Below are positions 3,959 through 7,110 of a stretch of DNA of 9,396 nucleotides, one piece after another (the stretch's first letter is position 1; the number at the start of each line of letters is the position of its first letter). The notes below the pieces were generated by a model. That model was given only the letters and a program-made list of their open reading frames with translations, was not told where the DNA came from and made no database searches. The stretch is from an uncultured Lacticaseibacillus sp. (GTDB lineage: Bacteria; Bacillota; Bacilli; Lactobacillales; Lactobacillaceae), in contig CAKRHU010000043.1 in NCBI GenBank assembly GCA_934339215.1, positions 1 to 9,396 on the forward strand, read 5' to 3'. The position numbers and the translations under genes were made by a program.

Positions 3959-4558
3959 TTATTCCAGTGGTTGATAAGGATTGGCCTTCAAGACTTGCGC
4001 ATAGAATTCAATGTCGTGGAAAGCTTCAGCCAACCGGCGCGCGAAGTGATCGCTGTTGTCAGCGTCAGCGTTAAGCGCGCCTGCAGTCGTGAAGTTGTCA
4101 TCGCAGCTCCACAAAAGCGCTGGCGTTGGCAAGACCATCAGCTTTAACATCCGCAACACGTTGACCATGCTTTCCGCTGCCAACATGCCGCCATCAGAGT
4201 AATGCGAATAAGTGATGATCTGGACGGGTTTGTTGGCGACTTCTGGGCCGACATAATCCAAGGTATTCTTCAAAGCACCAGTCATCGCGTGGTCATATTC
4301 AGGGCTCATGATAATGTATCCGTCTTGGGCTTTCAACGCATCCAACCACTTTTGTTCAGCGGCGCTTAAGTTCGTCAAAGGCATCGCTAAAGGCGTTTCT
4401 GGGTGGTCGTACAGCGGCAGCGGATAATCGCGTAAATCAAGCTATGAATAGTGGACTTCCGGCGTATCCGTATAGCGCTGGCGTAAGTATGCAAAAATCT
4501 TGGCGCCCAGCAATGGCTTGCGAGTTGTGCCTAAGATAATCCCGATGTTAAGTGTCAA
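3959..4558 (-). pseudogene. NADPH-dependent FMN reductase gene split by an in-frame TAG
   Basis: Reading from TTG at 4558, with AGGAGG about 7 bases upstream, the frame gives MTLNIGIILGTTRKPLLGAK and continues for 38 residues. It then meets TAG (plus CTA at 4442-4444) and resumes in the same frame with LDLRDYPLPLYDHPETP, running uninterrupted to the stop at 3959. Ignoring the TAG, the product is 198 residues, the normal size of this family. Flavodoxin-fold landmarks are present on both sides: the FMN phosphate loop GTTRKP near residue 10, and SPEYDHAMTGALKNTLDY after the stop, matching the family PEYNxxxxGALKNxLD motif. These enzymes reduce FMN or quinone-like compounds with NAD(P)H. One base change explains the break, so it is recent inactivation or a sequencing error. 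Restart at ATG 4384 would give 141 residues lacking the FMN phosphate loop and is unlikely to work. Confidence 0.85.
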
Positions 4559-4606
4559 AGTATTCCCTCCTAAAATTCAAGCTCCTTTTAATTTAGCGCA
4601 GCAAAA

Positions 4607-4736: not shown

Positions 4737-4759
4737 AAACAGGCAAAGGAGGAATTGTG

Positions 4760-5014
4760 ATGAGCACAATCTTACCACCAGAAGAACGTACCGGGATCCC
4801 TGGCGACACCTTGATCACGGAAACACCAGAAGCGGGCCGAGCTTTAGCAATGTTAATTGCGCGGCATACCGTACACCAGATCCAACCTGACCTTGACGTG
4901 TTAAAAGCCGGCCGCCCAGATTATGCCAGCGATGCGCGGGCATTGACTGCCGCAGCGCAAGTGGTCGCCATTGAATTTCAAACGATTGCCGCTGCCAACA
5001 ATTACTGGCGTTAG
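4760..5014 (+). CDS. Small conserved-looking protein of unknown function
   Basis: The gene encodes 84 residues starting MSTILPPEERTG. GTG at 4757 directly precedes ATG at 4760; the ATG is preferred because AAAGGAGG (4745-4752) is 7 bases from it and only 4 from the GTG. The protein is soluble, with no signal peptide, membrane segment or cysteine. A Pro/Gly-rich first 25 residues is followed by predicted helices at about 24-37 (EAGRALAMLIARH), 40-50 and 56-80 (an Ala-rich helix ending AANNYWR). It is monocistronic, with its own promoter and a strong terminator, and its codon use resembles its neighbours, which supports a real gene. I do not recognise the family and propose no function. Confidence 0.75.
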   Translation: MSTILPPEERTGIPGDTLITETPEAGRALAMLIARHTVHQIQPDLDVLKAGRPDYASDARALTAAAQVVAIEFQTIAAANNYWR

Positions 5015-5020
5015 TCGTCA

Positions 5021-5047
5021 AGCCGCACCAATGGTGTGCGGCTTTTT
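5021..5047 (+). terminator. Terminator of the 84-residue unknown gene
   Basis: AGCCGCAC (5021-5028) pairs perfectly with GTGCGGCT (5036-5043) around a 7-base loop and is followed by five T (5043-5047). It begins 6 bases past the stop codon. Confidence 0.9.
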
Positions 5048-5128: not shown

Positions 5129-5157
5129 TAATGGGTTAACGATCGGGAGGGATTAGC

Positions 5158-5442
5158 ATGATTGAATATTATTTGATCAATAACCAAGATTACTTTGCGG
5201 CAGGCTACACCGTCAGCCGCGATTTAGCTTATGTCGACACCACCGGCGGCTTAGAAACCGCGGCGAGCTTCAAAGCCAACACTGCCGCAGAAGCCAAAGC
5301 GGCACTGTATGCCCAAGTGCTCGCCCACCCCGCAGCACAAAGCGAACGGCAGACCTTGACCGACGCTGATAAAACTCGTTTAACCGATAAGTTAGATGCA
5401 GACTTTGAAGTGATCGGTACTGCCGATTTAGCCAGTTGTTAA
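5158..5442 (+). CDS. 94-residue unknown protein, first gene of the Cys-rich operon
   Basis: The protein begins MIEYYLINNQDYFAAGYTVS; GGGAGG about 7 bases before the ATG supports the start. It has no signal peptide or membrane segment. The first half looks like beta structure rich in Tyr (residues 1-30), with an Asp-Thr-Thr-Gly-Gly turn at 27-31. An Ala-rich helix follows at about 41-57 (TAAEAKAALYAQVLAHP), and a second charged helix at about 67-80. Its only cysteine is the last residue, Cys94. Its TAA (5440-5442) overlaps the ribosome site of the next gene, so the two are almost certainly co-transcribed and perhaps translationally coupled. I do not recognise the family. Partnership with the Cys-rich protein is inferred from the operon only. 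Confidence 0.78.
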   Translation: MIEYYLINNQDYFAAGYTVSRDLAYVDTTGGLETAASFKANTAAEAKAALYAQVLAHPAAQSERQTLTDADKTRLTDKLDADFEVIGTADLASC

Positions 5443-5456
5443 AGGAGGCAAGGACA

Positions 5457-5642
5457 ATGTCAGAAGAAACGAAACCCGCAACGACGGCCAAAGACGATAA
5501 CCCGTTTTGCCATCACGGCATGACCTGCAAGCCAGGATGCGGTTGCGCTGATGAGCATGGCATTTGCCAATGTAGCATGATTTCAGCGCGTCGTTGCACG
5601 TGTAACGGCTTATGCGGCGTACGCATGAGTGAAAATAAATAG
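5457..5642 (+). CDS. Cysteine-rich mini-protein, possible metal-binding (metallothionein-like)
   Basis: The product has 61 residues from ATG 5457, chosen because AAAGGAGG (5441-5448) is 8 bases upstream; the frame could extend to 5436 but that start has no ribosome site. It holds nine cysteines (18, 24, 28, 30, 37, 39, 47, 49, 53) and His19, His20 and His35. The spacing is C-x5-C-x3-C-x-C-x6-C-x-C-x7-C-x-C-x3-C, with three CxC pairs typical of thiolate metal clusters. A flexible, charged, cysteine-free N-terminus (1-17) and a short tail flank the core. There is no signal peptide, so it should be cytosolic. It does not match the CxxC ferredoxin or zinc-ribbon layout. I do not recognise it as a known bacterial metallothionein (SmtA/BmtA type); metal binding is inferred from composition and spacing. 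It is the second gene of an operon and is followed by a terminator. Confidence 0.8.
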   Translation: MSEETKPATTAKDDNPFCHHGMTCKPGCGCADEHGICQCSMISARRCTCNGLCGVRMSENK

Positions 5643-5659
5643 CGTCGTGATTCAACATC

Positions 5660-5689
5660 AGTCGTGCTCGAATTCGAGCGCGACTTTTT
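5660..5689 (+). terminator. Terminator of the Cys-rich operon
   Basis: AGTCG (5660-5664) pairs with CGACT (5681-5685), then a T-G wobble, then the fully palindromic GCTCGAATTCGAGC (5666-5679). Five T follow at 5685-5689. It lies 17 bases past the stop codon. Confidence 0.88.
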
Positions 5690-5804
5690 GATGAGGTCAG
5701 CGTTTATCGTAAGCAACGTATGATACAAAGTTGACACGCAAACGGAGTGGCGAAATTTTCGCTGTCGCGCGAACCCAATCATCAGGCAGTTGCTCACACA
5801 AATT

Positions 5805-5815
5805 TCTAGTCTAGA
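5805..5815. promoter_or_regulatory. Short palindrome beside the exporter promoter
   Basis: TCTAG-T-CTAGA is a perfect 5-1-5 palindrome ending 5 bases before the predicted -35 of the drug exporter, a plausible regulator site. A second palindrome, GCGAAA-T-TTTCGC, lies further upstream at 5750-5762. The 238-base spacer 5643-5880 holds no gene I can support. Confidence 0.35.
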
Positions 5816-5820
5816 TTGCC

Positions 5821-5849
5821 TTAACAGTTGTCATTTTGAGTGTCATAAT
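5821..5849 (+). promoter_or_regulatory. Promoter of the MFS exporter
   Basis: TTAACA (5821-5826) is followed after 17 bases by CATAAT (5844-5849), with an extended TG at 5841-5842. It lies about 30 bases ahead of the start codon. Confidence 0.6.
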
Positions 5850-5880
5850 ATAAAAATATTGTTTTTTAGGAGGGTCGCAA

Positions 5881-7110
5881 ATGGAAGACAAAACTCGGGC
5901 AAATGGCCCATGGAAACGGAATTTATATGTGTTATGGTTTTGTACCTTTGTGGCCGGCATCGCATTTTCTGAAATTATGCCGTTCCTATCGCTATATGTC
6001 AGCCAAATGGGTGACTTCACCAAACAACAGCTGACCTTTTGGAGTGGCGCGATTTATGCCGTCACGTTCTTGGTCACCGCCATCGTGTCACCTTTATGGG
6101 GACGCTTGGCCGATCGCACGGGACGCAAAGTGATGTTGATCCGTGCTAGCCTTGGGATCGCCGTGTCGATGACGATCATGGGCTTTTGTTCCAATGTTTG
6201 GGCGTTGTTCTTGGCTCGCTTGTTTCAAGGATTCTTTGCCGGATACATTCCTAACGCCCAAGCCTTAGTCGCTTCGCAAACGCCGCGCAAACATGCTGGC
6301 GCAGCGCTTGGAACATTGGTCACAGGTTCTGTTTCTGGGACATTATTTGGCCCGATTGTCGGCGGGGTGTTGGCGCAAGTCTTTTCCATCCGGAATACGT
6401 TCTTCATCACAGCGGGCTTATTGGTGATCGTCTGCTTGATGTCGGCCTTTATGGTGACCGAATCCTTCCAGCCGCAAGTGCAACCTGCAGGCACTAAACA
6501 AAAAGGGTTACTTCAACAAGTCGCTGATCCGAAATTGATCATCACCTTATTAGTCTCCACCATGATCGTGCAAACTGGGAATGCATCGATTTCGCCGATC
6601 ATCGCGCTTTACATTAAAGAACTGATGCACGGCGTCGGCCCAATCACGGTGGTGGCTGGGATCATCGCGGCATTACCTGGGATCTCCAATATTCTAGCTG
6701 CGCCACGTTTAGGCCGCTATGGGGATCGTCATGGTTCTGGGCGCGTGCTGATCGGGTGTTACTTATTTGCCGTGGTCGTGTATTTCCCGCAAGGCTTTAT
6801 CGGCAGTGTCATCGGCTTAGGGATATTGCGTCTGTTAGTTGGCGTATCTGACGCCGGGTTATTCCCCACGATTCAAACGTTATTGACGAAAAACACGCCG
6901 GCCAATGTTACCAGTGCGATTTTCTCTTGGAATCAGTCGTTTCAAGCCCTAGGAAATATGTTTGGGGCGTTACTCGGAGGCGCAATCGCCGGGGTTTTCG
7001 ATTACAATGTGGTCTTTATGTCCACCGCCTTGTTACTATTAATCAACTTGATCGTCTTGCGCGTCAGCCAACCACAATTGTTACAACGTACTGATAAGAA
7101 AGCCGCCTAA
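5881..7110 (+). CDS. MFS multidrug efflux transporter, PmrA/MdtG-like (DHA1)
   Basis: The 409-residue protein has the twelve hydrophobic segments of a major facilitator and starts at ATG 5881, with AGGAGGG 6 bases upstream. Motif A, GRLADRTGRKVML (74-86), lies between segments 2 and 3. Motif C, GSVSGTLFGPIVGG (149-162) in segment 5, marks the drug/proton antiporters. The stretch FFAGYIPNAQALVASQTP (118-135) and the whole N-terminal half closely resemble Streptococcus pneumoniae PmrA from memory. A hydrophilic loop around 195-215 divides the two halves. It should sit in the cytoplasmic membrane and export hydrophobic compounds using the proton gradient; the actual substrate is unknown. It is monocistronic, with its own promoter. 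Its stop codon overlaps the end of the convergent kinase gene. Confidence 0.92.
   Translation: MEDKTRANGPWKRNLYVLWFCTFVAGIAFSEIMPFLSLYVSQMGDFTKQQLTFWSGAIYAVTFLVTAIVSPLWGRLADRTGRKVMLIRASLGIAVSMTIMGFCSNVWALFLARLFQGFFAGYIPNAQALVASQTPRKHAGAALGTLVTGSVSGTLFGPIVGGVLAQVFSIRNTFFITAGLLVIVCLMSAFMVTESFQPQVQPAGTKQKGLLQQVADPKLIITLLVSTMIVQTGNASISPIIALYIKELMHGVGPITVVAGIIAALPGISNILAAPRLGRYGDRHGSGRVLIGCYLFAVVVYFPQGFIGSVIGLGILRLLVGVSDAGLFPTIQTLLTKNTPANVTSAIFSWNQSFQALGNMFGALLGGAIAGVFDYNVVFMSTALLLLINLIVLRVSQPQLLQRTDKKAA

Follow-up and report, generated by a model that had tools for sequence, protein, structure and literature searches.

The 9,396-nucleotide stretch of DNA analysed here (the window) carries a short gene whose 61-residue product is likely a cytosolic metallothionein, belonging to a Lactobacillaceae family without an entry in Pfam or NCBIfam. 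We infer metal binding, cluster formation, cytosolic location and metal identity: the nine cysteine thiolates would gather several ions of soft metals (for example Cu(I), Cd(II) or As(III)) into a metal-thiolate cluster, in which these ions would be buffered or detoxified in the cytosol. The gene (5457..5642, + strand), recognised by ORF translation, a family profile and codon analysis, starts with an ATG at 5457, comprises 61 codons and ends with a stop codon whose last base is 5642; its product is MSEETKPATTAKDDNPFCHHGMTCKPGCGCADEHGICQCSMISARRCTCNGLCGVRMSENK. The translation agrees with the initial annotation in placing nine cysteines (18, 24, 28, 30, 37, 39, 47, 49 and 53) and three histidines (19, 20 and 34) within residues 18–53, and three CxC pairs are formed by cysteines 28/30, 37/39 and 47/49. 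The good ribosome-binding site that had been reported is likely AAAGGAGG upstream of the ATG (5441..5448, + strand), which overlaps the stop codon of the gene for a 94-residue partner protein. No leader, signal peptide or membrane segment is visible by eye, and the polar N-terminus (MSEETKPATTAKDDN) is in line with the earlier statement that a signal peptide is lacking. The protein is thus smaller than 10 kDa, cysteine-rich, equipped with CxC-type clusters and, as judged by eye, without a signal peptide, traits that belong to the operational definition of a metallothionein along with conserved cysteine positions and thiolate binding of several d10 metal ions. Its AlphaFold2 model, computed without metal, is weak (pLDDT 64) and contains no helix; the low score carries little weight, since the part of the review consulted describes metallothioneins as folding upon metal binding (PMC7558416).

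A single-sequence search with the window protein returned only three proteins, the query among them, and three named loci, from Lacticaseibacillus kribbianus, Lactiplantibacillus dongliensis and Lactiplantibacillus xiangfangensis. A family profile run on 397 genomes of the Lactobacillaceae, the family of L. kribbianus, gave matches in 56 genomes at the reporting threshold of E ≤ 0.01. Fifty of these, about one genome in eight, had E < 1e-10 and were counted as strong, the six weak ones being left out; together with the window and a second copy in one genome they make up 52 strong loci. The spacing C-x5-C-x3-C-x-C-x6-C-x-C-x7-C-x-C-x3-C is exact, without insertion or deletion, in all 52 of them, as retrieved with a profile built from five sequences that themselves carry it, so that the conservation of the cysteine spacing among homologues, proposed earlier as a check, is borne out. 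The conserved core spans 36 residues (residues 18–53; 5508..5615, + strand). Its nine cysteines and Met22, four residues past the first cysteine, are invariant in 46 of 46 distinct cores, and Met41 is kept in 45. The members range in size from 41 to 61 residues (median 51, for the 51 members having a start). Both cysteine codons are used at each of the nine cysteine columns (TGT and TGC each in 19–31 of 50 distinct coding sequences), and the 11 pairs compared, without correction, all show far fewer nonsynonymous than synonymous differences per site (0.133 against 0.861 for the window and locus L061); taken together, this codon usage and the low nonsynonymous change indicate selection on cysteine itself. 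One million residue shuffles of the window protein did not once yield the nine-cysteine pattern. From 45 candidates in a wider database search, 36 family proteins were retained: 28 show the pattern in full, one cysteine has been lost in three, and five are truncated or frame-broken. The four whose names were shown are all “hypothetical” proteins from Lactobacillaceae, and sampling of the order (295) and of the class (398) brought up no convincing member outside this family.

Neither Pfam nor NCBIfam has a match for the window protein, and a scan of 43 members at E ≤ 1 gave one chance-like match per library, without any zinc-ribbon or Fe-S family. A PDB sequence search with the family found no match either, and no non-metal family came up in Pfam or NCBIfam. 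The initial annotation had described the spacing as unlike that of SmtA/BmtA, and the protein does fall outside this Pfam family: the PF02069 profile (Metallothio_Pro) matched none of the 43 members at E ≤ 1 and found nothing in 101 Lactobacillaceae genomes, yet recovered Synechococcus, which served as the positive control. The proposal of a new metallothionein-like family is accordingly upheld at the sequence level, by the conserved spacing, the lack of a non-metal family match and the lack of a PF02069 match.

The same searches bear on the alternative that the protein is a redox switch or a structural zinc or iron-sulfur mini-protein, in which the cysteines would bind a single structural metal, or else a cluster that serves signalling or the stress response. 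Such a role would suit the gene for a hexameric tyrosine-coordinated heme protein (HTHP; 4757-5014, + strand; PF11534, E 1.2e-29) which precedes the two-gene unit formed by the partner and cysteine-rich genes, its counterpart at L061 (89% identical, 474 nt from the cysteine-rich gene) and the Dps-like gene 3.2 kb away in the window. However, the window and L061 are the only two of 51 loci with an HTHP gene nearby, the family scans at E ≤ 1 gave chance-like matches only, and three CxC pairs with nine cysteines in 36 residues amount to more than one structural site. We therefore regard this alternative as very unlikely.

The surroundings of the cysteine-rich gene were checked for metal genes by tblastn at 51 loci, mostly with 3–5 kb of flank per side. 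Eight loci have metal-resistance neighbours, namely ArsR/SmtB genes accompanied by a cation-efflux gene, P1B ATPase genes or arsC, and at 42 the queried genes are absent from the flanks (the window being counted as having an HMA/Dps-like pair, 3 kb away). At L030, L035 and L078 an ArsR/SmtB gene is found on the same strand (105, 1040 and 3228 nt from the cysteine-rich gene, respectively) with a cation-efflux gene behind it, and at L076 an ArsR gene on the opposite strand is convergent with the cysteine-rich gene, 193 nt downstream of it, and a P1B ATPase of the cadmium family follows at 656 nt. Cyanobacterial members of the SmtA/BmtA family have a divergent SmtB-type repressor next to the gene; here none of the four ArsR neighbours is divergent, and no ArsR protein is present among the nine window proteins scanned. 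At L048, a P1B ATPase gene 168 nt from the cysteine-rich gene is transcribed away from it, followed by HMA and Dps-like genes. Within 3.5 kb, four ArsR genes were observed against 0.51 expected (50 genomes), three of the four coming from one clade; counted as two independent events they give P = 0.09. P1B ATPases are not enriched (2 observed, 1.19 expected, P = 0.33). The enrichment of metal genes around the family is thus modest. None of the 51 members has a CopY box (TACANNTGTA) in its 400 nt of upstream sequence, which speaks against CopY control of the gene.

In a third group of loci (L068, L071 and L075), arsC is located 81–190 nt upstream and an alcohol-dehydrogenase-like gene 0–2 nt downstream, all on one strand; the L068 arsC scores above the TIGR02691 cut-off. 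These tight neighbours, found in one clade, argue against reading the product as a bacteriocin or another secreted peptide rich in disulfides. A small cysteine-rich protein of lactobacilli with a patchy distribution (50 of 397 genomes) could be expected of such a peptide, but the N-terminus is polar with no visible leader, and the invariant cysteines, being nine and hence odd in number, are a poor fit to full disulfide pairing. This reading is barely credible.

Two plasmid records contain the cysteine-rich gene without an annotated feature. In that of L. plantarum K25, a cation transporter 73–75% identical to the one at L030 lies some 1 kb from the copy, and L. fermentum pLF25067 (AP017974.1; L081 and L082) carries the gene twice, CopY and P-type ATPase genes being some 4–7 kb distant. 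Plasmid pLF25067 has two segments that resemble each other and contain RepB, cupin, CopY, P-type ATPase and cysteine-rich genes, and one of the ATPase copies is annotated in three pieces. In the window itself, the gene pair for a Dps-like ferritin and a CopZ-like HMA protein (1653-2454, − strand), related to the L048 genes, is on the opposite strand from the cysteine-rich gene, at 3.0 kb (HMA, 55% identity to L048) and 3.2 kb (Dps-like, 40%). In the translated frame of an NADPH-dependent FMN reductase gene (3959-4561, − strand), residue 40 is an in-frame stop that interrupts the gene. The window's own neighbours of the cysteine-rich gene are not a metal operon.

The operon setting first suggested for the gene is borne out by the conserved partner gene, which ends 14 nt upstream. 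This first gene of the unit (5158..5442, + strand; ribosome-binding site GGGAGG at 5145..5150, + strand) was characterised by family search, alignment and fold prediction, and encodes a protein ending in an invariant cysteine, Cys94. No promoter-like match for the unit was found in the window. Terminator-like hairpins at 5024..5038 (+ strand, between the HTHP gene and the unit) and at 5660..5685 (+ strand, 11 pairs with a T run, 3' of the cysteine-rich gene), from the same hairpin scan, would frame the unit; they are weak evidence, because the three sites in the scanned stretch are not above chance (shuffle mean 1.9, sd 1.6). The partner gene is directly upstream of the cysteine-rich gene at 14 of the 51 loci, two of these being broken pieces (L001 and L064), and the gap is about 12–36 nt across genomes. 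The pieces lie in two frames (5702-5988 at L001; upstream of 5001 at L064). The two-gene unit occurs in one clade. Named partner holders are Levilactobacillus, Lactiplantibacillus and Lacticaseibacillus. The partner's predicted fold is confident (pLDDT 92.7) and has no match in the PDB at E ≤ 0.001.

This arrangement raises the question of whether the cysteine-rich protein is a metallochaperone or delivery module, exchanging metal with the partner through the C-terminal cysteine of the latter, rather than a general buffer. Intact or near-intact partner genes were found only beside the cysteine-rich gene (strong matches in 13 of 397 genomes, directly upstream of it in 13 of 13; four further matches are weak), and Cys94, the last residue, is invariant in 23 of 23 partner proteins. 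Yet it is the partner's sole invariant cysteine, genome G056 retains a stop-broken partner remnant without a cysteine-rich match in the 397-genome search, and no partner is found upstream at 37 of the 51 loci, so that the cysteine-rich protein must function partnerless in most species. We consider a dedicated delivery role unlikely. Cooperation with the partner, which we likewise infer, is part of a broader and tentative proposal that we find possible but doubtful: lactobacilli would have a new soft-metal system made up of two proteins, in which a nine-cysteine, two-methionine metallothionein family unrelated to SmtA would exchange metal with the co-transcribed 94-residue protein, whose invariant C-terminal cysteine would dock to the cluster. 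The partner with its C-terminal cysteine would then be a testable route for metal hand-over.

Returning to the metallothionein reading, the CxC-x6-CxC arrangement and the two conserved methionines favour Cu(I), whereas the metal-gene neighbours point rather to Cd, Zn or As; a broad soft-metal sponge is for this reason the best single reading. Against a metallothionein stand the 42 of 51 loci without metal genes, the modest neighbour statistics, the weak model and the loss of one cysteine in 3 of 36 database proteins. If true, it would provide a concrete candidate gene behind metal tolerance and metal uptake in food and probiotic strains.

Amongst known systems, the family is, by its sequence profile, separate from the SmtA/BmtA Pfam family; MymT, the mycobacterial copper metallothionein, was compared by description only. 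With SmtA/BmtA (PF02069; Synechococcus, Pseudomonas) it shares the trait of a small cysteine-rich bacterial protein, and differs in its two conserved methionines, the lack of a PF02069 match and the absence of a helix from the weak model. The cysteine spacing of SmtA probably also differs from that of the nine-cysteine family. SmtA/BmtA proteins have a GATA-type zinc-finger fold, on which the weak metal-free model (pLDDT 64) of the nine-cysteine protein has little bearing. MymT has CxC pairs in its middle part; it is mycobacterial, whereas the nine-cysteine family was found only in Lactobacillaceae in the samples searched, and this comparison too is by description only. As described in part of a review (PMC7558416), MymT is small (4.9 kDa), cysteine-rich, encoded by a non-annotated ORF and has a predicted capacity of up to six Cu(I), and the nine-cysteine protein resembles it, by description, in size, cysteine content and origin from a non-annotated ORF. 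The same part of the review extends SmtA homologues into the firmicutes (PMC7558416); the presence of a metallothionein in that phylum is therefore no novelty in itself. According to the portion of another source used here, the Pseudomonas metallothionein PflQ2 MT forms Zn3Cys9His and Cd4Cys9His clusters, and is thus like the 61-residue protein in having nine cysteines plus histidine; the Pseudomonas metallothionein operons are described there as having no metal regulator and containing genes of unknown function, which resembles the setting in the window (PMC7387436). The C-terminal motif for putative copper binding of CopY/CopR, given as CXCX6CXC in the excerpt cited (PMC5651008), equals the spacing of Cys28-30-37-39, although the nine-cysteine protein has no DNA-binding domain, five more conserved cysteines and no sequence family match. 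A literature search returned no paper on the nine-cysteine family among the matches listed. By 2020, as stated in the portion of PMC7387436 used here, biological function had been investigated for just two bacterial metallothioneins, SmtA and MymT, to which the Pseudomonas one was added. A separate, widespread metallothionein family of lactobacilli, invisible to Pfam and NCBIfam, would, if true, widen this set of SmtA, MymT and the Pseudomonas protein.
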